This document shows positions 6,028 to 63,839 of a DNA stretch of 64,000 nucleotides, piece by piece (position 1 is the first letter of the stretch; the number at the start of each line of letters is the position of its first letter). The position numbers and the translations under genes were made by a program. This stretch comes from Atriophallophorus winterbourni. Taxonomy: Eukaryota; Platyhelminthes; Trematoda; Plagiorchiida; Microphallidae. The notes beneath the pieces were generated by a model, which saw only the letters and a program-made list of their open reading frames with translations, searched no databases and was not told where the DNA came from. Where the stretch lies: positions 59,656 to 123,655 of the forward strand of contig JACCGJ010000277.1 of the NCBI GenBank assembly GCA_013407085.1, written 5' to 3'.

Positions 6028-6065
6028 TGTGAATGACGGAAAAGCATGCAAATGAATATTTTGTT

Positions 6066-29714: not shown

Positions 29715-29794
29715 ACAACAGTTGCATACAAGTATAACCACTTGTTCACAAGTTTGCCACTGTTTCAAGGCTCACCGAACATGGTCTTACTTTC

Positions 29795-29836: not shown

Positions 29837-29842
29837 TGTAAA

Positions 29843-42300: not shown

Positions 42301-43581
42301 ATGATGATGTTGATGAGCGTAAAATCAGTGTGGAAGTGCGATGTGCATTAGCGATGAGTGTTAATCACAAGCTTTCGAATGATACGCAGAGCTCCACTCA
42401 CCGGCATAACACATGAGGAAGAAGCGCCGAATAGTTCGACAACGACAATTGAGAACAGGCAATATTTCGGGTTTCGGAAGTATTGCAGTTCGAGGGACAA
42501 CATCTTCGGACGATATGCAATTCATCAATGTCGATCAAACGTGCAGTACGTGGCGAGGGATTGCAATGTACCGGCTGGGAACATCTTCGGACGATATGCA
42601 ATTCATCAATGTCGATCAAACGTGCACTACGTGGCGAGGGATTGCAATGTACCGGCTGCAACGAATTCCACTGACAAATCAGATCCAAGTAACAACCGGG
42701 ACAGACACGTTTGAGGAACAGTGCTGTGATTGTTTGTTTTCCCTATATAATATAAGCGTGTTTTGTTATTTGTCTTGTGCCTAATAAAGACGTCTGGCCG
42801 ATCAGCTTCTCTTGTTTTGTGGGATTCGTGTGATGAGCAAAATTAGCATGGGACTGGTTAAACTCAGGGATGAATCGAGAGAGAATCGATTTAGGTGCGT
42901 GCAACGCGGGAGTTAACGTGGTTAATGGTTGATGGATAAAATGGAACTGTGATAATTTGCAACATGTTCGCCGCCTGACACTTGTTGACCTTAAATGACC
43001 TGACAGAATCATCGGCCACTCTCTACCTCACAAGCTACACCAATATTCAGGAGGGTTATATGAATACTCATATGAATAATAATGATAAAATGCGGAATAT
43101 CAGAAGAAAATCCTGCTGTCAAACGAGACTCGAAGGTTTTATCCACGCATATCGCAAAATTTGATGCATATATGATCCCGCGACGCCGCCTGACATTAAC
43201 AATATTTTTATCAGTTGTGTTAATGCCAGGACACAGAGTTTATTTCACCCATTCGTTATACGATATTACTGTGTATGTGCTAATGAATTTGACCGTATGC
43301 AAACAGTCGGATACAAATTATATTATCATTAGCAGATTTGTTCATAATTCAAAGAACATGTTACTCATGAGTAGTCAAAATGCAAACGGAATAATTTCGT
43401 TCAACAGCTAGTAGCATTTTCGCTGTAGCCTATCAGAATTCACGAAATCACCCGTGTTTAATAGATTTAAAATTCAAATAACATACATCTTTTTCTATAG
43501 GCACTTGCGAATGCTGCAGCAAGCTCCATCATGATGTATGCAATGAATCAAAGTAACCACCAAGCGAACAACCCGAAGTAA
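33391..43581 (+). CDS. SLC6 Na+/Cl- dependent amino-acid (glycine-like) transporter, 13 exons
   Basis: Plasma-membrane symporter moving an amino-acid-type substrate with Na+ and Cl-. Exons: 33391-33486, 33668-33809, 35181-35312, 36036-36197, 36968-37028, 37119-37251, 37455-37693, 37839-37963, 38480-38684, 39974-40125, 41166-41428, 41522-41884, 43501-43581. All introns are GT-AG and phases agree, giving 2154 bp and 717 residues. TM1 has [14 protein letters not shown] (residues 59-72). Gly63 sits where monoamine carriers have Asp, so an amino acid is the likely substrate. Extracellular loop 2 has the Cys164/Cys173 pair nine residues apart and sequons at Asn165 and Asn182. TM6 reads [10 protein letters not shown] (297-306), and [11 protein letters not shown] follows as in glycine transporters. 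TM7 has NCATS (331-335). Exons 12-13 form a long cytosolic tail of about 147 residues. Start is the first in-frame ATG; see 32749. Closest by eye to GlyT/proline carriers; substrate unproven. Confidence 0.93.
34694..35135 (+). mobile_element. internally deleted RTE copy in SLC6 intron 2
   Basis: At 34703-34758 the plus strand encodes [19 protein letters not shown], matching residues 604-622 of the intact RTE ORF at 57834-61103. At about 34760-34766 it jumps straight to the codons for VTLQDMS (residues 1065-1071), then continues through the RTE 3' UTR to a TGATGATGATGA tail at 35113-35124. So about 440 codons are missing between the two joined parts. The copy lies in sense with SLC6, within the 1.4-kb intron 2, and ends about 45 bp before exon 3. 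Confidence 0.8.
35390..35720 (-). mobile_element. RTE 3' UTR fragment in SLC6 intron 3
   Basis: Shares blocks with the 3' region of the intact RTE (for example ggtagcacgtaccaagcgctt at 35422 against ggtagcacgtaccgaatgctt at 57562, and the gggatgaggtgcct block at 35530). Orientation is minus, like the intact element. It is 5'-truncated and diverged. Confidence 0.65.
36460..36478. repeat. (TA)n microsatellite in SLC6 intron 4
   Basis: An AT dinucleotide run of about 16 bp (tatatatatatatatatt). Confidence 0.8.
38037..38080 (-). ncRNA. hammerhead ribozyme in SLC6 intron 8, core conserved (family A copy 5)
   Basis: On the minus strand CTGATGA is at 38066-38072, GAAA at 38049-38052, stem III AC(CG)GT at 38044-38049, and the cleavage base A at 38043 (GTA is an allowed triplet). 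Stem I pairs CCAC (38073-38076) with GTGG (38039-38042). Stem II (CGGC/GTCA, loop AAACA) has one A-C mismatch at its base, which may weaken it. All invariant core bases are present, so residual activity is possible. It is antisense to SLC6, so the SLC6 pre-mRNA itself would not fold this ribozyme. Confidence 0.7.
38100..38290 (-). repeat. hairpin half of ribozyme-bearing repeat copy 5
   Basis: Read on the minus strand this matches 29590-29760: agcaccgtaacac, then gctgtatttgaacatcgaggtt followed by a tacaag block. It lies upstream of the hammerhead at 38037-38080, giving the same order as copies 1 and 4. Only one arm of the hairpin is clearly kept. Confidence 0.6.
39738..39802 (+). repeat. fragment of the ribozyme-repeat hairpin
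   Basis: catagggttcgcacaacgaa and gatgtttaagtgcgggaaatgtgagcaac correspond to the outer part of the 29465-29714 hairpin. Located in SLC6 intron 9. Confidence 0.5.
40456..40500 (-). ncRNA. decayed hammerhead in SLC6 intron 10 (family A copy 6)
   Basis: Minus strand: CTGATGA at 40484-40490, stem II GGGC-AATCA-GCAC (one mismatch), GAAA at 40467-40470, then CCGACC in place of CCGGTC. Loss of the G-T before the cleavage base removes the A15.1-U16.1 pair, so this copy is probably dead. Confidence 0.6.
42111..42116 (+). terminator. candidate alternative poly(A) signal after SLC6 exon 12
   Basis: AATAAA 227 bp beyond the exon 12 donor. If exon 12 is not spliced, the frame reads VSKQCY and stops at 41905, giving a shorter alternative tail; this signal could then end the message. 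The same stop context and AATAAA are kept in the duplicated copy (53742-53747). Purely positional evidence. Confidence 0.3.
42290..42830 (+). repeat. microsatellite, 81-bp tandem duplication and LTR-like sequence in intron 12
   Basis: A (ATG)n run lies at 42294-42312. Two copies of an 81-bp unit beginning aacatcttcggacgatatgc occupy 42499-42660 with one base difference near cgtgcagtacg/cgtgcactacg. Downstream, cctatataatataagcg (42741) is followed by cctaataaag (42780), a TATA-box then poly(A)-signal order like that in LTRs. I could not find matching LTR ends, so the LTR reading is only a suggestion. Confidence 0.5.
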
Positions 43582-45626: not shown

Positions 45627-46011
45627 TGAGAGACTACTCAGCCAATATGACCATTAAAATTCTTCATGCTGAGTGTGTTTTCCTGGGTCCGAAACTACCG
45701 CTGATTGAAATAGTTCATGAAAGTTAGTGGAGGATTAATGTCGTAAAACCTAATGTACAATTATTTTTATTATTGTTGCCGAAAGTTTACGCATGTTAAC
45801 CTTCAAAACTGGCGAATCAGCATACCCAAAATGACGAGCTTAGCCACGTTTCAATGGAAACGTATCACGGCACGCAAATGGCCATCTTGATGACTCACTT
45901 TTCTCGTTCACAGTTTCCGTATAGTATACGTTATGGACTGAAAGGTTGAAACATTCAGCTAAAACCATGAACATTTTTACATGTGTTATTATATCATTGT
46001 TCCGTCGTATG

Positions 46012-46375
46012 TCCTCTGTGAACTACTGAAGCGAGTTGTTGCATGCAGTTCACGAGAACACACTAATCATGAAGAATTTCTAATAGTCACCCGCGTCCAA
46101 TGGTCGCTTAAGTGGAGCAAACGCAAAACGTCCTGTGTGTGATCATCATCTAATTCCAAGTTCAACGGAATTCAGATCAAAATGACTTATGTCCTGTGTG
46201 GGTCTGTAATCAGTAGACCAAATCTGTCGAAAGAACCCACGTTTTTTTAGAGTGAAATGAGCGTGGCAGATAAACGTACACAGACACACACACTATAGAC
46301 GTTCTACAGCACGCTGCCAGAAACAATGTGTTCGAATCGCGGAATGCTCTCGGCACCATAAGTGTTGGCGAGCTT
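46012..46375 (+). pseudogene. degenerate copy of SLC6 exon 12
   Basis: About 364 bp aligning to exon 12 (41522-41884, 363 bp). The opening cctctgtgaactactgaagc matches ctccttcgcgagctgttgaag, the middle tatgtcctgtgtgggtctgt matches catggcctgtgtgggtccgt, and it ends in a donor-like GTAAGC (46376). Stops and frameshifts interrupt the frame in several places. A neighbouring exon 11 copy was not seen between the gap and this point. It is an old duplicate. Confidence 0.8.
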
Positions 46376-47429
46376 GTAAGCAAATATTCGCTTCAATGAA
46401 ATGCTTCTATATCCCAGTGAACCTATATTTCCAATGAAAGTTTGGTATTCGTGAGCCGTGCATCATTAGATTCGAATTTCTCGGCACTACCAACGTGTAC
46501 CCTCCACTGATTGGTTATGCTGCATCGTAGCCATACTAGTCTCACTCACAGTCTGAAGGTACGGCTATTCCTAATTTTCAAATACAATTGCTCAGCAAGC
46601 ATTGAAAATGAATTTCGCAAGAGAAGATGCAATAATCATCCAAGAAACACTTACTGCTCTTTTTCTGTATTATATGTCATCAGTCATACGTTTACGAATT
46701 AATCTTAATTGTCTTTACGATGAAAAATTCGATAATGCATCGAATTTCGGAATAACGTTGATCTGCATCAGGAAATCATCTTGGGGAAACCAGATTTCGC
46801 AATGCTTTGTTCGAAACTTTTATCCGTTTATTCAAAGATGATTTGTCGATAAAAAAGCGTCAAAACCCACAAAAATTACATTTGTTCGGAAGTTACAATT
46901 ATAAGAACTATTGTTACGGATTATTAACAAACACAAAGACATACTTGTTCGAGCGATTCTTCTAAAACATCGAGTGTAGCAGATAGTAAAACGTGGGTAG
47001 TTGAACTGTTCAACAACTGCACAAAGTGGACACTAAATGCAGAAGAAGTTCAAGCTGCAATGCTTTTGACAGATTTTTAATGTGTGGCCGGAAAGTTGTG
47101 TTATCACAGGAGATGAAACAAGTCTGCTAAGTTGGGATTTTTTATAAAATAAACTCCTAATGAAAATTAGTGATCTTCGTTCTTTTTGTTTTGGGCTTTG
47201 CACAGTTTCAGAATTCTGAAACGGATTTCATGTGGATGATTATAAAGTGCCAATGACGATGTCAGTTGCAATGCGTTGTGCGATTTCCATTAACTGAACA
47301 TGTTTTTTTCAACTACGGTATAGGGATTATGTTAAAATCAACATGCTGATTATTTCTATATTGCTCTTCAAAATATAATTTTCGTTCTCTACCGGTAACG
47401 GGTAAGCTAATGCGGATAGAGAATGAGTT

Positions 47430-48770
47430 TCAAATAATTGTTTAATCAGGAAATACAATGAACATGGGCACATTCGTTAGTATGGTGAAGCTAACGATAC
47501 ACGTCCAAAACCAAAATACAATGTATCCAAGGCTACACGATACAAAATGTCACAAGCTAACTGATGAATCGATAAAAACCAACATCCAATACAAGAGGTT
47601 ACTGTGAGTGAAGCGGGTATCATGAGAACAGTTGAACGTAGAGGCTACGAAATTGTGTGGATAGAGCGTGTGCGCTACGGTGAAGATTTCAAAGTTTGGA
47701 AATATTATGACTTGCCTAGAAATCTGACAGTTGAGATTAGCTGTCGTCGTTGCCCCCGAGTGCAAACCTTCGGCGTTTTGATTTTTTCGTGGGTATTGGA
47801 GAATTCGTTCGTCATTTTTTGACTACCTATCATAACCAAGTCCTTTGACATATTCACAAATTTGATCATGACGGTCCATAATGTAAGCACTGGACTCGAG
47901 TTTTGATCTTATTGGGGATCACTAGCAGTGCATATCCTCTGCTGTGGGTGGGAATTGAACCCCCTACCATCATTATCGTAGTCTCACGAATTACGAGCGG
48001 GTTTACACGTCCACCGTTTGACAGATCCAAATTAAGCGTTCATGAATCTTTATTGAGACTGGCGCATTTGAGTAGCTTTGTCTGCCAGATCAGTGGCGAG
48101 GGAGCTAGCAACATCTGCTATGGTCGCCAAACCGATCTGATCTCCACGCTTGATCGGTATCTGTCAAACCATGGACGTGTTGCCCTGTCCGTAAGGCGTG
48201 GAACTACCATGGTGATGTTCCGGTGTTCAACTCCCACCCGATGCAAAGGATATGCACTGCTGATGAGCTCCAATAAGAGCGTACTCGAGTCCAGTGCTTT
48301 TATTATGGACCGTCGTGATCACATTTGTGAATATTTCAAAGGACTTGGTACTGATGGGCAGTTACAAAAATGATGAACGAATTCTCCAACATACGCGAAG
48401 CCCACGAAAATTTCGATCTTCAAGGTTTGCACTTGCGGGCAACGACGACACCGAATACTAACTATCAGATTCCGATACAATTCGTAATATTTCTAAAATT
48501 TGAAATCCTCACCGAAGCACACACGCTCAATTCACGCAATTTCGTAGCCTTTACATAAAACTGCTCTAACGGAAACCTTTTTATTGGAAGTTGGTTTTTA
48601 TTGATTCGTCCGTTAGCTTGTAACGTTTTGTACCGTGTAGCCTCGAATACTTTGTATATTCGTTCTGGACGTGTATCGTTAGATTCACCACACTATCATT
48701 TTAGTGAATGTGCCCATATGCATTGTGTTTTCACGTTTCCTGACTAAAAGATTTTGTTAAACGTGTTTCC
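47430..48770. repeat. foldback element, arms about 640 bp, tRNA-like B box inside
   Basis: Left arm 47430-48070 is the imperfect reverse complement of 48100-48770 across a short centre. Examples: tgtatcgttagattcaccac (48673) pairs with the region at 47488-47508. gtccagtgcttttattatgg (48289) pairs with 47876-47896. ggatatgcactgct (48248) pairs with agcagtgcatatcc at 47925. On the left arm (minus strand) GGTTCAATTCC at 47951-47961 is a good polymerase III B box; the right arm has TGTTCAACTCC at 48224-48234. The right arm continues as the 608-bp repeat also found after SLC6. Confidence 0.85.
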
Positions 48771-48990
48771 ATATCTCATTCGCTTATCTGCTTGCACCAG
48801 TACAGGAAGTTATAATTAGATTCAATTATGGGGACAAAATGTATGAAGGGAATAGAGTAGTTTTTAAATCTGCAGTTAATAGTAGTATTGTGTTCGATAT
48901 GGCGATCGAAATGATCTCTTTACTCACACTGAATTACATTGCGTCCAATCACGATTGTTAGACAGGCAAGAAACTTCGTGCGGAAACGCA
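48771..48990 (+). repeat. distal part of the SLC6-downstream repeat (copy B)
   Basis: Continues the direct match to 43970-44190 beyond the foldback: cttgcaccagtacaggaagtt, then gatatggcgatcgaaatgatc, ending near ggcaagaaacttcgtgcgga. Not part of the inverted arm. Confidence 0.7.
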
Positions 48991-49104
48991 CAATTCATTG
49001 ACCGAAAACGGACACGGTCGTAAACCCAAATTTTAGTTACGGTCTCGTAATTTATCGCCTCCGTTAATATTATGTTGAAAAATTACAAATTATCAACATG
49101 GAAT

Positions 49105-49205
49105 CCATTTCGGCAACTGGTTTGCGCCATTCCCTGATTGGCCTGTAATATTTTTTATCATAAACTTTTCCATTTTATCAGGTTTCATAATGCAGTACTA
49201 TAACT
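49105..49205 (+). repeat. short repeat also present inverted at 62490-62580
   Basis: attttatcaggtttcataat with the following gcagtactataactgag is the near-exact complement of 62492-62530. ttggcctgtaatattttt (49139) corresponds to 62553-62570. Confidence 0.6.
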
Positions 49206-49545
49206 GAGCCCAAGCCAAAAGACTCCGCTGTGAACTATTGGAACTCTTGAACGCCAGAGCCCGGGAGGAATCTCTGTGTGTGTCATACGCTCTGGGAACT
49301 CGTGTTGGTTGAGCCAGCGCAATAATTCTAGCATAGGAACCTAATCGATTCTTTGCTTTATAGTAATCAATTTCAGATGAATCATGACCAGCGTGGCAGA
49401 GTTTTGGTATATATGTGGTCGATGATCGTACGCATTTCTCGAATAAATTAGACATTTTACCAAGGAGATACGAGTTTAAAAGCGCACTTGCAGCTATGAA
49501 CCGCATTTCCCAATTAGTTTTGATGTGTTTGCTCTCGTTGACTCA
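49206..49545 (-). mobile_element. inverted 5' segment of a CR1-like element
   Basis: A minus frame of 102 codons (49198-49506) has no known domain, but the segment 49330-49545 recurs in the same orientation at 55810-56018. There it lies just upstream of a minus-strand CR1-like ORF. Both copies end at the same boundary (ttgagtcaacgag on the minus strand). I therefore read it as the 5' end of that family. Here it abuts plus-strand RT sequence head-to-head. Confidence 0.55.
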
Positions 49546-50760
49546 ATGCCATGGCTCAAGTTTTTGAGCGAATAATAACCGCAGAAATCGTGCGACATCT
49601 GGAAACGAATCAACTTTCGTCAGTTGCCCAACAAGGAATTCGCAGAAATCGCTCTTGTCTAACAAATTTGCTGACAAGCTTGGACGATTGGACGAGAATT
49701 GCAGATGCGGGGGGCTGTATTCATGCATGCTACCTGGACATTTCTAAAGCGTTCGACAATTTACTCTTGAACAAGCTAAAGAAACACGGTGTTGTTGGAA
49801 GACTATACGAATTGCTAAGAGATTACCTCAACAACAGACACATCCGAGTTTGTGTGGACGGCCTATTATCGAAGAACATCGATGTCACTAGCGGAGTTCC
49901 ACAAGGCTCAGTGCTTGGACCAATACTGTTTCTAGTCTGTATGAACGATATACCACTACCAAATGATAGTGATGATGGTTTTGTTTGCTGACGATATAAA
50001 AGTATGGAGGCAAATCAGAAATGCCGACGATTGTATCTTGCTGCAAAACAATTTGAGTGCTTTGTTCAACTGGTCATCTGAAAATAAACTTTCATTGAAT
50101 ATGCAAAAGTCGAAGATGAATCAGATTGGTCGTGACCTTGGCTTTTCCTATCCATACAAGCTCGGCGACATTAACCTGGAGTACACCGAAAAAGAAAAGG
50201 ACCTCGGTGTCTGGATTTGCGGCAGTTTGAAAAATGGTCTACAATGCGAAACCGTTTTCAAAAGCGCGTCTCAGCTGCTCGGCATGCTACGGCGGATATT
50301 TGGACGATTTTCCCCGGGGTGTTTTCCTCTCATGATGAATACATATATACACCCGGTTCTAGATTATGCCGCACAAGCCTGGACACCATGGTTCCAAAAA
50401 GACCTCTTACTCCTGGATCGCATATACTGAAGAGCTTTTAAGCTTGTCATTGGTCTCGAAAATGTCATTCGCCAGGCGACTCAGTCAACTGCAAATGAGG
50501 ACACTTGCACAAAGGAGAATGCGAGGTGATCTCATCCTCGCATACAAAATACAACTACTGTTTCTTACCCCCTGGATATATTATTCCACCTTCGAACTTC
50601 CAGCAACAGCCGTGGCCATGGTTGCAAGTTGGAAATACCACATTCCAAACGGAACTGCCGCAGATATTTTTATCCGGTACGTGTGTGCTTTGCTTGGAAT
50701 TCCCTACCTTTCGATTTGGTAAGCTCAAACAGTTTATCTATATTCAAATCAAAACTTGAC
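49546..50760 (+). mobile_element. CR1-like RT, two frames plus 3' end
   Basis: Frame 1 (49551-49991) carries AQQGIRRNRSCLTNLL, CYLDISKAFDNLLLNKL (motif A), and TSGVPQGSVLGPILF (motif B). Frame 2 (49963-50430) carries VLFADDIKVW (motif C), KEKDLGVWICGSLK, LLGMLRRIFGRFSPG and AAQAWTPWFQKD. A third frame to about 50720 has the C-terminal LAYKI and an IFIRYVCALLGIPYLS-like block. Two frameshifts (near 49970 and 50430) break what would be one ORF. The endonuclease domain is missing. Confidence 0.85.
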
Positions 50761-50794
50761 ACTAATATGAGAGCTAATCCGAATTTTTAAGTAG

Positions 50795-50965
50795 CTGAAG
50801 GGACTAAACTTAGCCCCAACTGATCGAACGGCATATTGCCGCGAGGGTTATTAAAACCCCAGGATACTTCGAAGTAGAATACCATTTCGAAACGCTAAAA
50901 TCTCACCGGAAGCACAGGACCGGTTTCGAGGTTTTTGCCTCTCATCAGCTATGCGTATCCGCAGG
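50795..50965 (-). repeat. inverted monomer fragment of the 257-bp hammerhead repeat
   Basis: The minus strand matches the array at 51390-52062: gctgaagggactaaa (50798) is the complement of tttagtcccttcagc, and ttgccgcgagggttatt (50835) of aataaccctcgcggcaa. It contains a complete hammerhead (50912-50954). Confidence 0.85.
50912..50954 (-). ncRNA. type I hammerhead, intact (family B, inverted copy)
   Basis: Minus strand: stem I GCATAG (50949-50954) with CTGTGC (50912-50917), CTGATGA 50942-50948, stem II GAGG-CAAAAA-CCTC, GAAA, stem III AC(CG)GT, cleavage after the C opposite 50918. All core bases are present, and stem I is fully paired with one G-U. Confidence 0.85.
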
Positions 50966-51010
50966 ACTCTTCGCGGAGAGGAAAAAACCTCGAAACCGGT
51001 CCTGTGCATC
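50966..51010 (+). ncRNA. hammerhead 3' half lacking CTGATGA
   Basis: gagaggaaaaaacctcgaaa, then ccggtcctgtgcatc: stem II, GAAA, stem III and the 3' strand of stem I match family B, but the CTGATGA box is lost (cgcgg instead). It faces the inverted monomer, forming a small imperfect palindrome. Confidence 0.7.
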
Positions 51011-51365
51011 TGTTTGCTCAAAATTGATGTTTTCATGCATTTTTATTTTTTTCAGTCAACACGAAAGCTTTTGTTTTTCAAACGTTTTAACATGTTGTGA
51101 ACATGTAAACAAAGGACGTTTGATGCCCCGCACGCTTTAAACGCTGCGCAATATTTTTTTATTTCTTGAAGGATGGGGAATTTGCTGCGCCGGTCGGAAT
51201 AATGCGAAAGAAAACTCATACATGCCTGCAGACGGAACCGAAACTGTTTTGATTTTGAATGTGACTAGCAATCTCAAATTTTCCCATCAAATTTTGACGC
51301 CCCCCTTATTCGTGTTGAAATTCTGTGTTTTTTTGATTAACTGAAAATTCGTTTTAACGAATAAA

Positions 51366-51390
51366 GTTCTTTTCTTCTTCTTCTTCTTTT
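51366..51390 (+). repeat. (TTC)n microsatellite bordering the hammerhead array
   Basis: cttttcttcttcttcttctttttcttttc, preceded by AATAAA at 51360. The array starts directly after it. Confidence 0.8.
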
Positions 51391-51608
51391 TCTTTTCTGG
51401 TGAGATTTCAGCGTTTCGGAATGGTATTCTACGTCGAAATATCCTAAGGTTGTAATAACCCTCGCGGCAATACGCCGTTCGATCAGTTGGGGCGTAGTTT
51501 AGTCCCTTCAGCTACTTATAAAGTAGCGAGTAGACGAGAACTTCGGTTCGCATTGCGCCATCCGTCTACACAAATACTAGTTCGAAACGCGAAGAGTCCA
51601 GCGGATAC

Positions 51609-51651
51609 GCATAACTGATGAGAGGCAAAAACTTCGAAACCGGTCCTGTGC
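51609..51651 (+). ncRNA. type I hammerhead (family B, array unit 1)
   Basis: CTGATGA 51615-51621, stem II GAGG/CTTC with loop CAAAAA (one G-U), GAAA 51636-51639, stem III AC(CG)GT, cleavage after C51645. Stem I is GCATAA with CTGTGC; the pair next to the core is A-C, a mismatch absent from the other copies. Farther out CGG and CCG can pair past an internal loop, as needed for tertiary contacts in stem I. Confidence 0.85.
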
Positions 51652-51865
51652 TTCCGGTGAGATTTTAGCGTTTCGGGATGGCATTCTACTTGGAACTATC
51701 CTGGGGTTGTAATAACCATCGCGGCAATACGCCGTTCGATCAGTTGGGGCTTAGTTTAGTCCCTTCAGCTACTTATAAAGTAGCGAGTAGACGAGAACTT
51801 CGATTCGCATTGCGCCATTCGTCTACACAAATACTAGTTCGAAACGCGAAGAGTCCAGCGGATGC

Positions 51866-51908
51866 GTATAGCTGATGAGAGGCAAAAACCTCGAAACAGG
51901 TCCTGTGC
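51866..51908 (+). ncRNA. type I hammerhead (family B, array unit 2)
   Basis: CTGATGA 51872-51878, stem II GAGG/CCTC (perfect) with loop CAAAAA, GAAA 51893-51896, stem III AC(AG)GT, cleavage after C51902. Stem I is GTATAG with CTGTGC, six pairs with two G-U. All invariant positions are intact. Confidence 0.88.
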
Positions 51909-52158
51909 ATCCGGTGAGATTTTAGCGTTTCGGAATGGTATTCTACTTCGAACTATCCTTGGGTTGTTATAACCCTCGCGGCAATACGCCGTTCGATCAG
52001 TTGGGGCTTAGTTTAGTCCCTTCAGCTACTTATAAAGTAGCGAGTAGACGAGATCTTCGATTCGTAAAATCCATACCAGACAAAGTGGAATACTTCGTTT
52101 TCAAAAGAAGGCGTTCAGGGGATAAGAAACATTCTTCTCAAAAACAACGCTTGCTTAC

Positions 52159-52826
52159 CGTCTGGCTGGCACTTATAATTCCAAGGGCATCGAGCGATTC
52201 GAAGTCCTTGTTGCTGGCGGCCCGTTTCAAAACCTCCTTTGTGTGGACCTGCGTGAGTTTCTCCGCCACACTTAGTTTACTCTGTAAGAATTTAGGTTCT
52301 TCCGGGAGAGTAATACCACTTATGATGGACCCACACAGGTCGTGAGTAATTTGTGTCCGGGTACCGTTGAGCATAGCATGGGATAGAGTTCCCATACTGG
52401 AATTAGTTCGTTTGCTCAGCTTCAGTGATTCTTCAGACTGAATGATCATCAAAAACTCCTCACGGTATTTGTGATCACACGAGCTCAATGCAACAACAGG
52501 ATTCAACAGCTCACGAAGGAGCTATAATCGTTAATGAAGAAGTAGGTAAGATACCCATTTTGGAAGAAAATATAATAATACGAAGAATTTTCTATTAGTT
52601 AAAAACTCACAATGAAGCCTCTTTCACGACAGTATTTTTACAAAAACCAAATCGGAATCAGGCTTATTGGGAAAACTGCCATCACGTTGCCAAAGATGAC
52701 AGCCCATGCTGGATATCTGTACTTCCCCAACATAATTTCCTCGCCAGCGATGAGGAGGAAAATTACAAGTGCACAACTCAAAATCTGTGCATTGACCAAC
52801 CAGCATTTACGCCGAAACCAATTTGG
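52159..52826 (-). pseudogene. inverted partial duplicate of SLC6 exons 12 and 11
   Basis: On the minus strand, exon 11 sequence (52826-52611, 5'-truncated) ends at a kept donor ATT|GTGAG, then a short intron, then exon 12 (52521-52159), exactly 363 bp and open throughout, with acceptor ATAG and donor GTAAGC both kept. The exon 12 peptide differs from the parent at scattered residues (LSSCDHKYREEF for [12 protein letters not shown], for example). Without the first 10 exons it cannot encode a transporter. It forms the left arm of a palindrome centred near 52833. Confidence 0.85.
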
Positions 52827-52840
52827 CTCATAATAAAACC

Positions 52841-53785
52841 CACGCCAAATTGGTTCTGGCGTATCTGCTGGATGTTTGTGACGCCAACTTTGAGTTGTGC
52901 GCTTGTAATTTTCCTCCTCATCGCTGGCGAGGAAATTATGTTGGAAAAGTACAAATATCCAGCATGGGCTGTCATCTTTGGCAACGTGATGGCAGTTTTC
53001 CCAATAAGCCTTATCCCGATTTGGTTTCTCTACAAATACTGTCGTGAAGGAGGCTTCATTGTGAGTTTGTAACTAATATAGAATTCTTCGTATTGTTATT
53101 ATACTTGCTTCCGAAATGAATATCTTACCGACATTTTCATTAACCTTTTATAGCTCCTTCGCGAGCTGTTGAAGCCCGTTGTTGCCTGGGGCCCGCGAGA
53201 TCACGAACACCGTGAGGAATTTTTGATGGTCATTCGGTCTGAGGAATCACTTAAGATGAGCAAACGGAACAATTCCAGTATGGGAACTCTATCCCATGCT
53301 ATGCTCAATGGTACTCAGACACAAATGACTCATGGCCTGTGTGGGTCCGTCATAAGTGGCATTACTCTTCCGGAAGAACCTAAGTTCTTCCAGAGTAAAC
53401 TAAGTGTGGCGGAGAAACTCACGCAGGTCCACACGAAGGAGGTATTGAAACGGGCCGCCAGCAACAAGGACTTCGAATCGCTCGATGCCCTTGGAATTAT
53501 AAGCGCCAGCCAGACGGTAAGCAAACAATGTTAGTGATCAGAATGGTTTTGCTCATTAGGAAATCTTTTTTCAAAACGAAATGTTACACTGCGTCTGGTA
53601 TGCATTATCTTTATGCATTTTACTTCGCTCTATCCATGTGAACCTGACAAGTCACACCTTCTACCTTTTCTTCTCTTCAGTTTTCATTCGTAAAATGTTT
53701 CGTCATTTATTTTTCAAATATGTTACAACAAATTGAATTTAAATAAAATATTATACTCGTAAGGTCGATCGAATCTTTTCGCAGG
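52841..53785 (+). pseudogene. partial duplicate of SLC6 exons 11 and 12 plus flanking introns
   Basis: Near-identical to 41212-42150: exon 11 (from ccaaattggttctggcgtat to donor at 53060), intron, exon 12 (53154-53516, 363 bp, open) and about 270 bp of the next intron including AATAAA. The first 45 bp of exon 11 are missing and the copy stops where an RTE 3' fragment begins (53790). Only a handful of bases differ from the parent over exon 12, so it is younger than the inverted arm. It could be mis-taken for a gene in automated annotation. Confidence 0.9.
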
Positions 53786-53789
53786 TTTT

Positions 53790-54280
53790 GATGCTTCATC
53801 TTCAGCAGAGAATCTATAACACGTATAGATTGTACCGAATGCTTGACTGCCACACAACCATGAAAAAGTTCAATCCTAGAATATGTGGAAGAGTGGGACT
53901 CAAATAGCTACGGATTCTATAGAAGAGTAAGCACAAACAAACTGGGATGAGTTGCCTACATCTCGAATGGAACATGCACTCAATCAAGTTTTGTAAACGA
54001 GTAGAGCTACAATAGCACGACAGCTTTCTTGATGCCTTCACTGTTATGCATCATAACCAAATTTCCTTGTCAGTCTATTTGACAACATACGACGTTGAGC
54101 CAACACTTCAAGAACATGCTCAGTGTAAGACCACCATTAAACACGGTTTTGGGACATATCCTGAAGCGTACCTAACCATTGTAATATCTGATCGCGGGGA
54201 CCCCAACCCGGAAGATAAGTCTAATCACGCCGGACTTTCAATCTTTCGGTATCACTCCATGAACCATCGAATAGTTAAAC
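53790..54280 (-). mobile_element. RTE 3' end, truncated
   Basis: Collinear with 57550-57955: cttgactgccacacaaccatgaaaaa, then ctacggattctatagaagag and tgggacatatcctgaagcgt. Includes the last codons of the ORF (region 54140-54230) and the 3' UTR. Minus orientation, diverged. Confidence 0.8.
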
Positions 54281-54479
54281 AGGATGGAAAGCGGTTCACA
54301 TAGCTGACGATGTCCGAACCTGAGCACATCTGACGTGATGCCATCTTACATTTCTTACATTTAGTTTGAGAAATTAACTTGCGACAATCTCTGGATTTAT
54401 CAAAATTTCGCTCAATGCTTCGATTCCTGAGTCGACTGAATACTCACAACGTTCCACTAAAACCTTTGGCACAAATACT

Positions 54480-56018
54480 TTAGAGTAATAAATCGCGAGC
54501 ATTTGCGGTTTCGAACGTGGTCCCAGTGGGTTTTTCACCATTCTGGACGGTTGGACCTGGTTTGACTTTAGCTTTCGCGTTCATGATTGTGTATAGTAAA
54601 TCAGAGTTGCGTTCTAATTTTTGACAACAGCATCAATTGGTGCGCTTCCTTATCCTCTTGATGAAGTAAAGTCCCTTTGTTGCGTAGCATACGGAAATCT
54701 GGCCAAGAAGTAGAAGTATTGTTGGTTTTATTCTGCATCCACGCTGCTCGTTTCAGTTTTATCCGTTTTCGTTCTTCTGCGGACAACAAAACGAAGTTCA
54801 TGTTCTGATCTTTTAGGAACGATCTGCGAGTTCTCGTCTATCTTTAGTTTCAGAAAACCTATAAATCCGTTTCATTTGTATCATCGAGGGTGATTTATGT
54901 GTTGTCTTTTGACCGAAGTGGAGGCGATTATGATAATGAAGAGCAACACTGCCACCAAATTTCTATCGATCGTTCTTCATCAAATTCATCTTTGGAATGG
55001 ATATCTCCGTTTCAATCAATTGGGAAGAATACCGTTTCTGTAATGCCGATAATGTCAGGTGAGTAGTGCGAGCATATCTCAGTTAACTCCGCTAATTTTT
55101 TCGAAAGGCTTTGCGCATTTCCATATAAACACCTTATAAATTTTGTAGTGTTCAAATCATGAAAGGTTATCAATGGGCTTACTCGGTCGGAATAATCAAG
55201 TTTTTTGGAGCTATCGCATGATATTCAGTTTGAACCGTATCACTAGGCATTGATGGGTCGGTACTATCCGTTTGCTTGCTACCGGCAATTATCCTGGCCA
55301 AGCTCAACTTGACATTTCGGGGTAGGTATCTTCTATTAGCTTTCTATTCACGTTTGATACTATCGGTCATTTCGGTTGTGAAGAAGGTTAGCTTTAAAGG
55401 GCCAGAACCTTGCCTTTTATAGTTGGCAGGCCGCGGTATCCTAAAAGCATCCAAAATTATGGCTTTTTTAATACCGACTGTTTCGGCTAGTTATTTTCAC
55501 TGTTTGTGATCCTGCTCAGACATTACTTGAGAAGGTATGTCAGCAGTATCTTTCGGAACGCCTAGAAATACCATACTTCTTGGATTATTTTCTTCTCGAG
55601 ATTAATCCGACGACTTTCACTCCCACCATGGTAGATCTGCATGAATACGACATGTAGACTCTGGAACAGGTAAGCATTTAAGAGTACGTTTTCCAGGTCC
55701 TCCGCAGATTGCAGCGTAATTCGAAAAGGTGAGGATCATTATTGGGAGGAGAATTCCGGTGGCGGTTTAGCCGAACTATTAATGAGGGAGTAACAATAAT
55801 TTCAATACAGTAACCTAATCGATTCTTCGCTTGTAGTAATCAATATCAGATGAATCATGACCAGCTTGGCATAGTTTTGGAATAAATGTAGACGATGATC
55901 GTACGCATTTCTAGAATAAATCAAACGTGGCCAAGACATTCAGCCAAGGAAACGCACTTGCAGCAATGAACCGCATTTCCTAATTAGTTTTGATGTGCTT
56001 GCACTCGTTGACTCAAAT
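54480..56018 (-). mobile_element. CR1-like element, 5' region and ORF start, decayed
   Basis: Minus-strand translation across stops gives an ORF1-like block (NNPRSMVFLGVPKDTADIP, then FRIPRPANYKRQGSGPLKLTF, about 55350-55600). Next comes an endonuclease-like block (EISIPKMNLMKNDR..FGGSVALHYHNRL, 54930-55020), then a linker (KLKRAAWMQNK..RMLRNKGTLLHQED, 54640-54790, and AKVKPGPTVQNGEKPTG, 54520-54580). This order fits the 5' part of a CR1-group element. The 5' boundary at 56018 is shared with 49545. RT is absent on this side. Confidence 0.65.
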
Positions 56019-57145
56019 TTACTGGTGTAATGACAACTCAACGAAAATCGACGGAGCCACGAATATCATCGGTAATGTGAATGGGCAACTAGAAAATGCT
56101 AAAATATTTGGAAACTTATTATCAATTTTCACTGCTTGTGTATGGATCAAATCTTCATATAAAAATATAATTGGGTGAACCACCCGCAATAACAAAACAT
56201 TGAAACTCAAGTTACTAATTCATGATATTCCTTGTAATTTTCCCTGAGATCAATATAAGGAAAAATTACACGGGCAAAGATATTGATCAGTTAATAGACC
56301 AGAAGCTGTTTGAAGATGATAATGATATCATGAAGTATAATTACCGACAGAATTTATCAATCATGTACTCGAACATTTCAATAAGTTAAATAAAGTGCAC
56401 TTATATTAAAACGAACTTGTTGCAACATATTTGAAATCCGCTCACACTGTTCAGTTATCTTTGATTTGAACAATTTGGCGACTTGATAATACGTAATATT
56501 ACAACATTTCCGAAATAAGCTTTCAAACAAACATCGAGAAAGTAAAGTTGATTGTAACTTACCGGCTGCATTTAACGGCAGTGCGCTCGCACGGACGGCA
56601 ATTGAACTAGCATCTATTCGATAGTGCGAAATTGCAGTAAAAATCACTGCATATTGCTCGTCGCTCCGGTTTGAATGACTTGTCATCAATCGATATGTGA
56701 GCATTGTCTCATTTAGATATTGATTACGAATCAATCAATACTATATCTCGCTCTGGGTTTACACTGGCTTGCCGCTAACACTAATTAAGTTAAATCATAC
56801 GGTTTTGTCTTATTAATTATGATGGTCGCATGATTATTTGATTGAGAATGCCACGAATGAAAATTAGGACATGGGGTTAAAATGCCTACAATTCATAGCA
56901 GTACAGAATTCCCGTATGAATGTGAATATGCAAGAATAATAGTATATAACGAGTTGATATATATATGCACACGATTAATGTTCGTTCGCATATGTAAGTT
57001 AAATTCCGTTTTAAATATCTCCATGCAATGGAGAGTCCATCACATGTTGAGAAATTCCAGAAACTTTTATTACGCTCACGTTCAGATCGTGAACGTTAGA
57101 TCTTGATGAATAAGTTAGGTCTACTTACCACACATTAAAAACAAC
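56019..57145. other. no recognised feature
   Basis: Open frames of 60-118 codons (for example minus 56378-56734) show no motif. AT-rich. Confidence 0.4.
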
Positions 57146-57149
57146 TGTT

Positions 57150-57530
57150 TTAGTCGATGAGAATAGTATCATAATGTATTTTGATATGGGTAAAGTCACA
57201 TAAACCTAGACGGCGCAATTTTTCATTGTACGGAACCTTGCGATGGATCATCACTGACTTCGTCGCTGTGTGATAAATTTTATCGCAACTAAGGAGCATA
57301 GACATTAGACATATTCCATCGTTGGACGAGCCTAGACATGTGTGATTGATCGTAGCGATAATAGCAATAATCTTCAGAACATTCTTTGAAAGAAACCCAA
57401 CAATCTGCAGATATGTTGATTTACATTCGAGCAGTAAACTGTTTGCTTTTGATTTCCAGTATTCCGTACTCCATAGTTGGTTTCCGCATAGATCCATGCC
57501 AAGCTTTCAGTTCCCGATCGATATGATTCA
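57150..57530 (-). mobile_element. CR1-like C-terminal remnant
   Basis: Minus frames give YRSGTESLAW, then an ICRLLGFFQRMF block, YHTATKSVMIHRKVPYNEKL and RRLGLCDFTHIKIHYDTIL, equivalent to 17420-17830 of the CR1-like element but with an internal deletion and frameshift. Its upstream edge lies against the 3' tail of the RTE. Confidence 0.7.
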
Positions 57531-57534
57531 ATCA

Positions 57535-57833
57535 TCATCATATTCAAAGACAGCAATACACCGGTAGCACGTACCGAATGCTTAACTGCCATACAACCAT
57601 GAAAAAGTAAAATCATAAAAGATGGGGAAGGGTGGGACTTAAATTACTACGGCTTCTATAGAAGAGTAAGCACAAACATACTGGGAAGAGGTGCCTACAC
57701 CTCGAATGGAACATGCATTCAAACAAGTTTCGTGAACGAGTAGAGCAACATCAGCACGGCAGCTTCCTTGCGGCTTTCACTGTCATGCATCATAACAAGC
57801 TTTTCTCGTCACTCCGCTTGACAACATACAAGG
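57535..57833 (-). mobile_element. 3' UTR and tail of the intact RTE element
   Basis: About 300 bp between the stop codon and a TGATGATGA tail (57532-57541 as seen on the plus strand, tcatcatca). The same UTR is found in truncated copies at 34766-35135, 35390-35720 and 53790-54200, which fixes its extent. Confidence 0.75.
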
Positions 57834-60800
57834 TTATGCAAACACTCCAAGAAGATGCTTAGTGCAAGACCGCCATTGAACACGGTTTCGGGACATATCC
57901 TGAAGCGTAACTAACCATTGCGATATATGATCGCGGGGACACCAGCCTGGAAGACGCGCTGCGCCTACTTTGGAAAGGTTAATAGTAAGGGTTTTTAACT
58001 GCCTATGCCATGTGACGGTTTGGCCACCCCGAGATTTACGCCAATCAGGATGTGGCGTCGCAAAAAGAACCTGTTTCGGAAGTCGGTGGTCCGGCATCCG
58101 TAAAACGTGACCCAACCAGCGTAACCTATGCAGGTTGATCTGCTTCTCTATATCGACATTACTACCAAACAACTTATTTCGGAGAGCATCGGTGCGCATA
58201 CGATTGTAACAGCTAACTCCTAGAATGCTGCGGAGACACCGGTTGTCAAATACTTGGAGACGCTGAATGTGTTCTTTACGTAAGGTCCAGGTTTCGCACC
58301 CATACAGTAACACAGCCCGCACTGTCGCTTTATAGACTCTACCCTTGAGTAGCAGAGACAGTCCTTTCTGACGCCAGAGGTGACCTAGGTTGCGGAATGC
58401 TACGGTCGCTTTAGAAATGCGTGCCGAGACCTCGTTATCTAACGATGCAGAATTATTGATACAACTACCGAGATACGTAAAACGATCCACAATTTCAAGC
58501 GCCTGATTGTCAAGTAATAAAGCCTTGTTCGATAAGTCGATGTCCTGCAGAAGAACACTGCACTTAGAGGGCGCAAAACGCATTCCAAATGCGGGCACAA
58601 TACTAGATAGCTTGTTCAGTATCGCCTGTGCATCTGTGTATGAGTCGAAGAGCAGAACTATGTCATCAGCATAATCCAAGTCGAGAAGCTTGACGCCTGG
58701 CATTATGTGAACTCCGAAGGCTGGAGCACCGTCGCTGCATAATTCCATGATAGCATCAATTACGAAATTGAACAAAAACGGAGAAATCGGACATCCTTGT
58801 CGGACGCCACTTGTAGTGTTGAATTTGGGAGAAAGTTCGTTGTAAACCTTAACGCATCCGGATGTATGAGCATAAAGTGCGCGTAGTATGTTGACATACT
58901 TATGCGGAACGCCTTTGCACAGCAAGGTCTTAAACAGGACATTTCGATCGACTGAATCAAATGCTCCTTTGAAGTCTAAAAAGATGGCTATTGTCGGCTG
59001 TCGATAGGTGTGCCGCAGTTCTAATATCCGTCGAAGAGTAAAAATGTGGTCGACACAGCCTCTGCCAGGCCGGAAGCCAGCTTGCTGCTCACGGATCTGT
59101 GATTCCCTATGCGATGTTAATCTTCGAAGACATATGGACGCTAATAATCTCGTAATGATGGGAGTGAGACTTATCCCACGGTGATTAGAGCATGAGCTTC
59201 GCACACCTTTTTTAAATATAGGTATGATAACTGATTCGCCCCAACTCGGAGGGACGGATTCTGACATCCACACTTCACGGAGGAGATCTCCTAATGTGCT
59301 GATTAGGACTTGGCCACCTTCTTTGAACAAAACAGGCGGTATGTCATCGGGGCCAGCAGCTTTGAATCGTTTCATGGATTCGATACATGCTTTAATTTCT
59401 AAATCATTAGGGGGATCTACGCTAACAGGCCAAGGATCACACTGCCTCAAGTGAGGGAATGATTCTGTTGCAGGCGACCAGCTGAATTGTTCTTCAAAAT
59501 GTTCGGCCCAGCGTGACAGGCGGCGATTCTTATTAGTGATAAGAGTACCGTCTAATTCCGCTATAGTCTCACTCACTCCTTGTTTCGTAGGCCCAGTCGA
59601 TCGAATAAGTTGGAAGAGTTTTCGCACGTTACCCGCATTATTTGCTATTTCCATTTCTTCGACCTTATTTAGCCACCACCTTTCTCTGTCTAGTCTTAGG
59701 CTCCGTTTAAGTTCATTCCTCACGCGTCTACGCTCTGTGTTGTGTCCAGGACCATGAGGTATTTCGCGTCGCTGGTGAAGAATTTCTATAGAGCGCTGTG
59801 AAATCCAGTGGGACTTTTGGGTTGGTTGTGCAGTCTCACAGGCTGTTATTGCGGCGGCTCGCATAATCCCTGCTATTTTGTTCCACCTTTCATCGGTAGT
59901 TGCATACTGGGCAACTGGGAGTGAGTTACTCAAGGTGGTCCTATAAATGTCTTGAACTGCAGGCTGAAAGAATTTTTCGACAGCAATGCGTTTCCCATTC
60001 GAGGGCTTCGTACCGGAGAACTTTAACGAGAACCTACATCGCACAAGAGCATGATCTGAATCTACGCAGGTATTCCAAAAAGAGCGGCAGTCCTCAATGC
60101 AACCTCTCCAGCGAGCACTTATGGCGATATGGTCGATTTGGGCCGAAGGTTGGCTTCCATCCGGCGAGCGCCATGTGGCACATTGACATCTTTTATGGCG
60201 AAAGGAGGTGCTGCTAATGAATAATCGAGATTGTGCACAGAATTGCATAAACCGTTCACCATTATCTGTGCGTTGGCTTTCAAGACCAAACATGCCACCT
60301 AATTGTGATTCAGATGTATCTAAGCGACCTAGTCTGGCATTCATATCTCCTGCTAAGACAACAATATCGGAGCTTTTTGCACGTCGCAAAAGAGCATAAA
60401 GATCGTCGTAGAAGGCGTTCTTCTCGTCGTCGGAATTGGTGTTAGTTGGAGCGTAAGTTGCTACAATAAACAAGCATCTCTGATTAGAAGATTTTGAGTT
60501 TGGTCTAATATTAGTGGCTAGTCTAACTGCGCACATCCTGCTATTACAAGGAATCCAATCGATTAGACAGGATTCGGCACGCGAATTCAGCACTATACCA
60601 ACACCCGCCTGTCCTGAAAGGGCAGCTACAGAATCACCAGAGCAGCGCAAAAAGTAACGAGTTGAAAGGTTTGGGGCAGTAAGTTCGGTAATTATAGACG
60701 GATCATATAAGCGCGTTTCCGATAAACAGCAAACATCAATAGATAGACTATCTAAGGTAAGAGCCAGTGCAGCTTGCTGGCCTATTTGTCTCAGAGTCCT

Positions 60801-61103
60801 GACATTCATGGCTCCGATGTGAGCAGAGGTCCGTGGTTTAAGAAAGTGATCTGTAGATTCGCGAACAGAAAATGTTCCAACATGTTCAGCGCGGTCTTTT
60901 CTAAAGCTGGGATTGACAGACGGAGAGTTGTTAAGAGTGGATGGGGGAGGGGAAGGGTCGGAAACAGTTTGAAGAGTAGGGCCAGCAGTAGCTTGTTTTC
61001 GCTTACCCGCCCTGCTGTATGCAGCAGGTAAGGCGACCCTGTTTATCGTGCGCGACGGCCGATGCACTATGGAGTTGGGTTTCGTAGTAATAGTCATGGT
61101 CAT
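57834..61103 (-). CDS. RTE-type endonuclease/reverse transcriptase, intact ORF
   Basis: One uninterrupted 1089-residue ORF. Residues 96-352 form an apurinic-type endonuclease: Asn100 in GAMNVRTL, Glu129 in LSETRL, GDMNA at 252-256, and Ser-Asp-His at 349-351. The RT follows: SMKRFKAAGPDDIPP (576-590), LDFKGAFDSVD (709-719, motif A), SGVRQGCPISPFLFN (765-779, motif B) and YADDIVLL (811-818, motif C with both Asp). The C-terminal domain has YLGSCI (877), LLYGCETW (932) and RLRWLGHVLRMP (993-1004). All catalytic residues expected of the family are present. The protein nicks target DNA and copies its own mRNA there. The first 90 residues are Ser/Pro-rich and basic, with no domain seen. It may still be active or have died only recently. 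Confidence 0.92.
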   Translation of the reverse strand: MTMTITTKPNSIVHRPSRTINRVALPAAYSRAGKRKQATAGPTLQTVSDPSPPPSTLNNSPSVNPSFRKDRAEHVGTFSVRESTDHFLKPRTSAHIGAMNVRTLRQIGQQAALALTLDSLSIDVCCLSETRLYDPSIITELTAPNLSTRYFLRCSGDSVAALSGQAGVGIVLNSRAESCLIDWIPCNSRMCAVRLATNIRPNSKSSNQRCLFIVATYAPTNTNSDDEKNAFYDDLYALLRRAKSSDIVVLAGDMNARLGRLDTSESQLGGMFGLESQRTDNGERFMQFCAQSRLFISSTSFRHKRCQCATWRSPDGSQPSAQIDHIAISARWRGCIEDCRSFWNTCVDSDHALVRCRFSLKFSGTKPSNGKRIAVEKFFQPAVQDIYRTTLSNSLPVAQYATTDERWNKIAGIMRAAAITACETAQPTQKSHWISQRSIEILHQRREIPHGPGHNTERRRVRNELKRSLRLDRERWWLNKVEEMEIANNAGNVRKLFQLIRSTGPTKQGVSETIAELDGTLITNKNRRLSRWAEHFEEQFSWSPATESFPHLRQCDPWPVSVDPPNDLEIKACIESMKRFKAAGPDDIPPVLFKEGGQVLISTLGDLLREVWMSESVPPSWGESVIIPIFKKGVRSSCSNHRGISLTPIITRLLASICLRRLTSHRESQIREQQAGFRPGRGCVDHIFTLRRILELRHTYRQPTIAIFLDFKGAFDSVDRNVLFKTLLCKGVPHKYVNILRALYAHTSGCVKVYNELSPKFNTTSGVRQGCPISPFLFNFVIDAIMELCSDGAPAFGVHIMPGVKLLDLDYADDIVLLFDSYTDAQAILNKLSSIVPAFGMRFAPSKCSVLLQDIDLSNKALLLDNQALEIVDRFTYLGSCINNSASLDNEVSARISKATVAFRNLGHLWRQKGLSLLLKGRVYKATVRAVLLYGCETWTLRKEHIQRLQVFDNRCLRSILGVSCYNRMRTDALRNKLFGSNVDIEKQINLHRLRWLGHVLRMPDHRLPKQVLFATPHPDWRKSRGGQTVTWHRQLKTLTINLSKVGAARLPGWCPRDHISQWLVTLQDMSRNRVQWRSCTKHLLGVFA

Positions 61104-61545
61104 GGTTGTATGCGGGCTGGGATACTGCCAGGTCGCCCATGCCTAGACAGGAGAACAATTAGGGTTCTCGACCAAAGCCTTTGGCTAAAAAGCCTGACCC
61201 ACAAGGCAGCGGGTTAGGTTGAGACCGTGTTCGTCTGACCTCTATCCATTGACCTTCCTGGTATGAGTGACTCTGAAGGTGCTTGGATAGCACCACCCAG
61301 CATAGCTCAATGGGTCACAGAGGTACACAAACCATCGCACAACGTTAAGGTCCAGTCTCAGCGCGATGGATCCAGTCTCAGCGCGATGGGGTCCAGTCTC
61401 AGCGCGATGGAGGTCCAGTCTCAGCACGATGGCCCGTTGTATCGCTCACCGAAGTGAGCTCGAGGCTAGCCAAACAATGACCGACTGACAGGTTGTTGGT
61501 CGGATTCGATTCTTACCATGCACTGATACACGGCAGAGAACCGTA
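61104..61545 (-). mobile_element. 5' UTR of the RTE element with tandem repeats
   Basis: Sequence upstream of the RTE ATG, without a frame of its own. At 61349-61432 it has four tandem copies of about 20 bp (core gtccagtctcagcgcgatgg on the plus strand, spacing 20-22, one base change in the last). Tandem repeats upstream of an ORF in a non-LTR element could hold promoter elements. The exact 5' end is not known; about 61500-61545 is the edge beyond which CR1-like tail sequence starts. Confidence 0.6.
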
Positions 61546-61547
61546 TA

Positions 61548-62265: not shown

Positions 62266-62690
62266 TGGCTAGCTCAGTTTTACATGGCCTCGCATTGCAT
62301 GTTGTTCTTCAGACTTCAACTTAACCAAACGCTCGGGTACTTTTCTTCTGTTGTCCTTTCCAGTTTTTGTGATCGAAGCTTGTATGAGAATGGGATGTTT
62401 TCCTAATATGCAACATTTTGCACATTCTGAAATTGAATGGAAGCTTGTTCATGAGTTCCAATGGTTGACAGCTGAGTCTTTTAGCATGTATTCAGTTATA
62501 ATACTGAGTTATGAAACCTGATAAAATGGAACAGTCTATGATAAGTTAAAATATTACAGGCCAGCTAGACATTTGGCTTATTTGTTGAAACCTTTAGTCG
62601 GCAATACAGCCTAGTTCATCAATAACCCATATGACTTTGTTGCACGCTTATAGTCGGTAACAATTGATGACGATGAAATAATAGTTAGCT
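62266..62690. repeat. no gene; contains inverted copy of the 49.1-kb repeat
   Basis: 62490-62580 is the reverse complement of 49105-49205 (gttatgaaacctgataaaat). The rest is featureless; it may be upstream sequence of the Penelope-like fragment that follows. Confidence 0.5.
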
Positions 62691-62699
62691 TAACAATTG

Positions 62700-63835: not shown

Positions 63836-63839
63836 GCAG

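Follow-up and report, generated by a model that had tools for sequence, protein, structure and literature searches.

A 257-bp tandem repeat with type I hammerhead motifs in the fluke Atriophallophorus winterbourni, a probable decayed retrozyme-like element

What kind of element gave rise to a short tandem array of hammerhead motifs in the genome of the fluke Atriophallophorus winterbourni, and which enzyme would have copied it? The array lies within a window of 64,000 nucleotides (contig JACCGJ010000277.1), which is the whole stretch of DNA that was analysed and to which all positions refer. Metazoan non-LTR retrozymes are described as tandem units of 150-450 bp with one type I hammerhead each and as documented in animals, including platyhelminths (PMC7229834). 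Accounts of schistosome repeats document the same kind (PMC8490949, PMC4918200, PMC2770079). The original prediction, made from the letters of the sequence, had called the locus retrozyme-like and had linked it to Penelope-type ribozymes.

The array runs head to tail from 51395 to 52064, with a period of 257 bp, 2.6 copies, 93% matches and 0% indels as determined by Tandem Repeats Finder. The predicted 257-nt unit with two head-to-tail hammerheads, placed at 51391-52062, was therefore right within a few bases. Unit 1 (51395..51645, plus strand, as are the other two units) has 251 of the 257 nt: the 6 nt that follow a cleavage site at the start of a unit are missing, and its end coincides with the first predicted cleavage site. 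Unit 2 (51646..51902) is a complete 257-nt monomer between both predicted cleavage sites, and unit 3 (51903..52064) comprises the first 162 nt only, stopping before its hammerhead. Plus-strand cleavage is predicted after C51645 and C51902, in agreement with the sites first proposed and 257 nt, exactly one unit, apart. Nucleotide comparison indicates that the unit sequence is confined to the array locus within the 64-kb window. The open-frame list contains no frame of 140 codons in the array, and GC content is 47.2% for the array and 47.9% for the unit. No tRNA was found by ARAGORN in the whole window or by a permissive Rfam search of 1501 bases. Candidate pol III boxes in the unit are unconvincing (best B box with 3 mismatches, A box with 1-2 mismatches at several places). 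The literature on hammerheads, retrozymes, trematodes and Penelope elements, in which sequences and supplements are not searchable, yielded no published name for the 257-bp unit. The pattern CTGATGAGNNNCAAAAANNNCGAAACNNGTC has 0 matches in viral and prokaryotic contig collections, which says nothing about flukes; in the viral collection, the looser pattern CTGATGAGN{4,20}CGAAACCGGTC occurs in 2 stretches and a unit-specific 19-mer has 0 matches.

Three hammerhead motifs, here termed family 1, are associated with the unit: hammerhead 1 (51602..51656, plus strand), hammerhead 2 (51859..51913, plus strand) and hammerhead 3 (50907..50961, minus strand), the last within an antisense copy upstream of the array. 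Their cores, CTGATGAGAGGCAAAAAC(C/T)TCGAAAC, are located at 51615-51640, 51872-51897 and, on the minus strand, 50923-50948, and the core of hammerhead 3 is identical to that of hammerhead 2. With up to 3 mismatches allowed, the core pattern has 3 matches in the window versus none in 100 shuffles. CUGANGA ... GAAA ... UH is invariant in all three copies, and the three helices, open at helix I, define the motifs as type I. The covariance-model check named in the original prediction gave 0 Rfam matches in the window at gathering scores, which taken literally speaks against a hammerhead; however, the sub-threshold matches to Hammerhead_HH9 (RF02275) are significant. They score 44.0, 34.1 and 31.1 bits (gathering score 52), the highest score belonging to hammerhead 3, with E-values of 1.3e-9, 2e-6 and 1.8e-5 for the 1501 bases searched and of 5.6e-8, 8.4e-5 and 7.9e-4 when the whole window is searched. 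HH9, an amniote intron motif, is the best-scoring Rfam family for all three and has the same core, the same arrangement of helix I and the same CAAAAA loop 2; the family-1 motifs stay below its gathering score (44 versus 52) and their stem III is five nucleotides shorter. A hammerhead descriptor that required the core, GAAA, a stem II of 3-6 pairs without mismatch, a short stem III and at least 5 of 6 stem I pairs found four sites in the window, the three family-1 motifs and 5992-6021, whereas 300 dinucleotide shuffles contained a mean of 0.007 sites and a maximum of 1.

In the predicted helix I, a small internal loop separates six inner pairs from four outer ones; helix II has four pairs and the CAAAAA loop, and helix III consists of one A-U pair that closes CCGG (in copy 2, CAGG). 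In the three copies taken together, 44 of 45 hammerhead pair cells are standard. The exception is in hammerhead 1, where A for G beside the core gives an A-C mismatch with the first nucleotide after the cleavage site, leaving one of the three copies unpaired there; stem II of this hammerhead also includes one G-U pair. All 15 counted pairs are standard in hammerhead 2, and the description "apparently intact" suits this copy better than hammerhead 1. The two-pair stem III originally proposed would require a 2-nt loop; sterically, only the A-U pair with a CCGG or CAGG tetraloop is possible in a monomer, which can thus form one pair only. In all three copies, the monomer hammerhead fold is predicted to be less stable by 9-13 kcal/mol than the minimum-energy fold of the 59-nt segment.

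A short stem III may be better suited to action as a dimer. The ACCGGU of hammerhead 3 is self-complementary, and the predicted energy of the ACCGGU/ACCGGU duplex is -8.3 kcal/mol, versus -2.3 kcal/mol for ACCGGU/ACAGGU and 0.0 kcal/mol for ACAGGU/ACAGGU. Given this self-pairing, the family-1 stem III can be likened to an axolotl motif, described as having a single-pair helix III with a palindromic tetraloop and as cutting far better as a dimer (PMC7229834). Since hammerhead 2 has the non-palindromic ACAGGU, neighbours in the array would pair poorly now. Folded as a circle, the plus strand of unit 2 has a predicted energy of -85.6 kcal/mol versus -65.3 (sd 5.0) in 200 shuffles (z -4.1, 0/200 as low). 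The minus strand of unit 2 has a z of -2.0 with 8/200 shuffles as low, and the circle of unit 1 (251 nt) a z of -2.7 with 2/200. The plus-strand fold, better than that of shuffles, supports a structured RNA of plus polarity. In the predicted unit circle 65% of nucleotides are paired, compared with an average of 61.5% in shuffles and with the "above 70%" given in the literature (PMC4918200).

The differences between copies bear on both the history of the array and any selection on its RNA. Distances to the majority sequence are 10/251 for unit 1, 8/257 for unit 2, 4/162 for unit 3 and 7/192 for the antisense copy (2.5-4.0%). Each change occurs in just one of these four copies, with one site a two-copy tie; a 35-nt direct piece beside the antisense copy has one change in common with unit 3. 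This near-star divergence, with like distances and private changes, suggests that the array and the antisense copy go back to one source, from which they were copied at roughly the same time. The original prediction read RNA-level selection from changes that nearly all keep pairing. There are 29 changes at 27 sites, 22 of them within predicted pairs of the majority fold, and 12 break a pair, compared with 13.0 expected when the same changes are placed at random. Per copy, the probability of as few breaks or fewer is 0.54, 1.0, 0.16 and 0.41. Two hammerhead pairs vary, each on one side only, and 0 of the 15 change on both sides. Pair breaking is as frequent as under random placement, and RNA-level selection as read from the copies is rejected.

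These results are also relevant to the notion of an ordinary satellite, in which an old hammerhead SINE copy was amplified in place by unequal crossing-over with the ribozyme as a passenger. The small number of units (2.6) and the missing pair conservation would fit such an origin, as would the target sites: approximately 30 nt of flank per side contain no common word of at least 5 nt, either around the array or around the antisense block, and the outermost flanks of the two together have in common only the 5-nt AATCC. In retrozymes, the target-site duplication is described as longer than 4 bp when present and is not required by definition. Local crossing-over does not, however, explain an antisense copy as close to the majority (7/192) as the tandem units, making an ordinary satellite quite improbable.

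The antisense copy (50784..50975, minus strand) extends from 58 nt before the cleavage site to 134 nt beyond it, with 93% identity over 192 nt. It is directly followed by the 35-nt direct piece (50976..51010, plus strand), which is the 3' half of a hammerhead and is complementary to 50909-50943 (94%), the turn being 32 nt of the antisense copy. The antisense copy with the best-scoring hammerhead and the direct piece were absent from the original prediction. A 384-nt spacer (51011..51394, plus strand), ending in AATAAAG and a (TTC)n tract, separates this fold-back from the array; it is either the 3' end of an upstream LINE or a captured spacer. The LINE is represented by decayed RVT_1 frame pieces at 49542..50790 (plus strand), the last of which stops at a TAA (50788-50790) that lies at the start of the antisense copy.

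On its other side the array is abutted by the left arm of an SLC6-like (PF00209) palindrome (52068..53606), the arms of which are 86% alike with 16 nt between them. A frame that crosses the palindrome centre has a match to the SLC6 transporter family (PF00209, E 9e-12), and the opposite strand reads nearly alike there. A further SLC6-like copy (94%) is located at 41210-42156, and, judging by the reading frames, an intron may be retained between two exons there. Nucleotide comparison also detected weaker relatives of these fragments at 46012-46384 and 63842-63999 (65-68% identity).

The position of the array raises the possibility that the helper was a LINE. The array starts directly after the AATAAAG-(TTC)n, some 600 nt downstream of the stop codon of the LINE, as if a retrozyme mobilised by a LINE, not by a Penelope-like element, had been copied in at or with the adjoining LINE tail. 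This possibility is a sub-question of the retrozyme reading. However, other LINE copies in the window, where the 3' side was inspected and recognisable, terminate not in TTC but in repeats such as TTTGAATCC, and comparison of 51011-51395 with the rest of the window gave nothing better than E 0.025. Moreover, 5' inversion by a LINE is not known to give an inverted duplication of one stretch, and the position beside the LINE tail may be chance. A LINE helper therefore appears unlikely.

The window also contains an open LINE frame of 1102 codons (57837-61142, minus strand) with endonuclease and reverse transcriptase. It has 63 homologues among 7991 candidates scored, the best with up to 66% identity. 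Of those that name an organism, 17 of 21 are from flukes (Dicrocoelium, Schistosoma, Opisthorchis, Fasciola, Paragonimus and Clonorchis), which is consistent with a trematode host; the remaining four are from a bacterial metagenome bin, a bat and two plants. Long fluke relatives have about 50% identity, including five Dicrocoelium rows at 49-53%. An open frame of 182 codons (62886-63434, plus strand) is a candidate reverse transcriptase that, by its motifs, may be Penelope-like. It has no Pfam family and no protein homologues among 28 candidates, the length limits of which exclude full-length relatives. Three PDB sequences matched at E 0.27-0.58, none related by name, and the structure model (mean pLDDT 36.5) is without value. 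A six-frame word scan of the window, a weak test, gave no GIY-YIG word. Two short tandem repeats were also recorded in the window, an 81-bp duplication at 42499-42658 (98% alike) and four copies of 20-22 bp at 61348-61432.

Additional hammerhead regions were detected with a covariance model built from the three near-identical family-1 motifs and searched without filters, the E-values of which are rough. On the plus strand it matched 5976-6044 (34.3 bits, E 6.5e-7), 48244-48308 (30.3 bits, E 7.6e-6), 50951-51016, which is the family-1 fold-back, and 23476-23550 (14.3 bits, E 0.14); on the minus strand it matched 38024-38088 (19.0 bits, E 0.008) and 47876-47941 (16.7 bits, E 0.03). Further matches were weaker. 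The match at 5976-6044 also scores 32.9 bits to Rfam Hammerhead_1 (gathering score 34). The window thus appears to contain two further hammerhead families, new here. Family 2 comprises six dispersed copies with a hammerhead region in the 64 kb, with 68-81% identity: 5900-6120 (plus strand), 11082-11251 and 29713-29845, and, on the minus strand, 38034-38092, 40422-40536 and 9515-9590. The part of 5900-6120 after the hammerhead has a relative at 2776-2840. The copy at 5992-6021, the sole family-2 copy that passes the descriptor, keeps the whole core and a stem III of ACCGGT, and the copy at 38 kb has an 83-codon frame from an ATG inside the hammerhead. Family 3 is a head-to-head pair (47742-48035, minus strand, and 48150-48450, plus strand) that is 77% alike; 48242-48314 scores 31.8 bits to HH9. 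One of the two family-3 copies contains the exact B-box word GGTTCAATTCC, of which an estimated 0.2 are expected in the window, and no claim is made from it.

Head-to-head inverted copies occur at four hammerhead places, which are those of family 1, two family-2 copies and the family-3 pair. In family 2 the fold-backs are 5766-5850/5856-5940 (93%, 5 nt between) and 29442-29581/29598-29737 (76%, 16 nt between), and in family 3 the fold-back is 47907-48039/48146-48278 (76%, 106 nt between). Only two of the six family-2 copies have one, the other four showing none or a 20-nt A+T-rich one. The inverted repeat at 5766-5940, with 85-nt arms, lies about 40 nt before its hammerhead, and Rfam miRNA-like hairpins there are far below threshold. 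Positions 1-44600 and 45627-64000, the sequence between them being mostly N, were scanned for inverted repeats of at least 28 nt within 400 nt. The scan found 8 pairs, of which 5 are at the four hammerhead places, 1 is the SLC6 palindrome and 2 are weak (70 and 72%). A second scan used 1.5-kb tiles and 11 hammerhead sites set by hand, which include decayed family-2 remnants but not 23476-23550. It gave 11 palindromic loci, 5 of them no farther than 100 nt from a hammerhead site (P 0.003). One of the five is hammerhead 2's own hairpin, and without it the count is 4/10 (P 0.014); at 70% identity or more it is 4/6 (P 0.0016). Without the 100-nt margin the corresponding counts are 3/11 (P 0.037), 2/10 (P 0.18) and 2/6 (P 0.085). 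These P values are only a guide, the margin and the identity cut having been chosen post hoc and hammerhead pieces partly making up the fold-backs. The enrichment of fold-backs at hammerheads is suggestive; it depends on the cut-offs and clearly exceeds chance only with the 100-nt margin.

Fold-backs of this type are described for rotifer Penelope elements, with head-to-head inverted repeats and palindromes at the junction explained by self-priming (PMC3846280). It is thus necessary to consider whether the unit is debris of a Penelope-like terminal repeat, that is, a pseudo-LTR with a small hammerhead, the coding part of which is absent. The inverted copy with a short junction is as in Penelope inserts (PMC3846280), and the core holds an ATG where stem II starts. 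The cut lies 28 nt from the A of this ATG, nearly the distance described for Penelope-like elements with hammerheads (PMC11167929, PMC3846280). The ACCGGT stem III also occurs in family 2 of this window. However, the frame from the core ATG closes after 16 codons in 3/3 copies, helix I is extended with an internal loop, and no Penelope coding sequence, reverse transcriptase or GIY-YIG, was found beside the array. The monomers are also in tandem, not repeats around a body; compared with the direct and inverted terminal repeats described for Penelope, the order here is an inverted copy (50784-50975), a 35-nt direct piece and the 384-nt spacer before the array. We regard debris of this kind as a doubtful source. 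It overlaps with the retrozyme reading if retrozymes derive from such repeats, and the probabilities given to the two do not sum to one.

Taken together, it is likely that the array is a genomic copy, now decayed, of a mobile element that is non-autonomous and belongs to the metazoan non-LTR retrozymes. This reading is favoured by the exact 257-nt period with a hammerhead in each complete unit, hammerhead matches well beyond chance expectation, the plus-strand circular fold (z -4.1 versus -2.0), the near-star copies and the self-pairing ACCGGU. In the description of Cervera and de la Pena 2020 (PMC7229834), metazoan non-LTR retrozymes likewise have one type I hammerhead per unit, a length range that includes 257 bp and no coding capacity, and some have a weak helix III suited to dimers; in GC and in the stable predicted circular fold the likeness is partial. 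The array differs from them by its adjoining antisense fold-back copy, the likeness being one of description and not of unit sequence. Its GC of 47-48% is below the 50% of the text yet above the 45% of Figure 1C (PMC7229834), and the circular fold of its unit pairs 65%, not over 70%, of the nucleotides. The SMalpha/Sjalpha and W-elements of Schistosoma (PMC8490949, PMC2770079) are also described as trematode repeats a few hundred bp long, dispersed or in short tandem arrays, with a type I hammerhead. However, the SMalpha family, also likened by description and not letter by letter, is 335 bp long, and the SMalpha-type SINE has a tRNA-derived part, whereas the 257-bp unit has no tRNA by ARAGORN or Rfam. 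Counted against the retrozyme reading are the missing target-site duplication, the missing pair-preserving signal, the 65% pairing, the GC and the broken palindrome, as well as a clear fold-back excess only with the 100-nt margin and four of six family-2 copies without a fold-back of note. The term retrozyme-like therefore remains the best reading, based on the 257-bp length, one hammerhead per complete unit, no long frame and the plus-strand circular fold, although not every argument first offered for it held.

From this anatomy we infer how a retrozyme-like array would work. Read-through transcription would give an oligomer, in which neighbouring hammerheads, with a stem III too short alone, would pair via the palindrome ACCGGU and cut as dimers. 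Dimer cutting would release 257-nt monomers, which a host ligase could close to circles. The reverse transcriptase of an autonomous element may then go round the circle more than once, giving a cDNA that would be inserted as a short tandem array. Both LINEs and Penelope-like elements have been named as the helper, the latter as a strong candidate (PMC7229834), and the repeats are described as having no motif that would show the helper (PMC7761336). Given the head-to-head inverted copies at four hammerhead places, a Penelope-like helper is somewhat more likely here than a LINE. The proposed link to Penelope-type ribozymes thus gains some support from the fold-backs and from the ACCGGT stem III of family 2. 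In an Anolis Penelope-like element, reverse transcription is described as starting inside the RNA and the frame as beginning at hammerhead stem II, but hammerhead mutants did not affect insertion in vitro (PMC11167929), which is a point against the ribozyme being needed for Penelope machinery.

The array on its own is one more member of an already known kind. Tandem repeats that carry hammerheads provide a way for circular RNAs to arise naturally in animals. With its three hammerhead families and the fold-backs beside some of them, the 64-kb window makes the helper question testable by genome-wide junction counts. Based on the fold-backs in families 1, 2 and 3 and the ACCGGT stem III common to families 1 and 2, Penelope-like machinery might move the tandem retrozymes of flukes. 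Rotifer Penelope elements are described as copying host genes that contain introns (PMC3846280), and the array touching the SLC6 palindrome may trace such host-gene copying. We advance this proposal tentatively and consider it rather unlikely as it stands; if true, it would name the helper left open in the literature.
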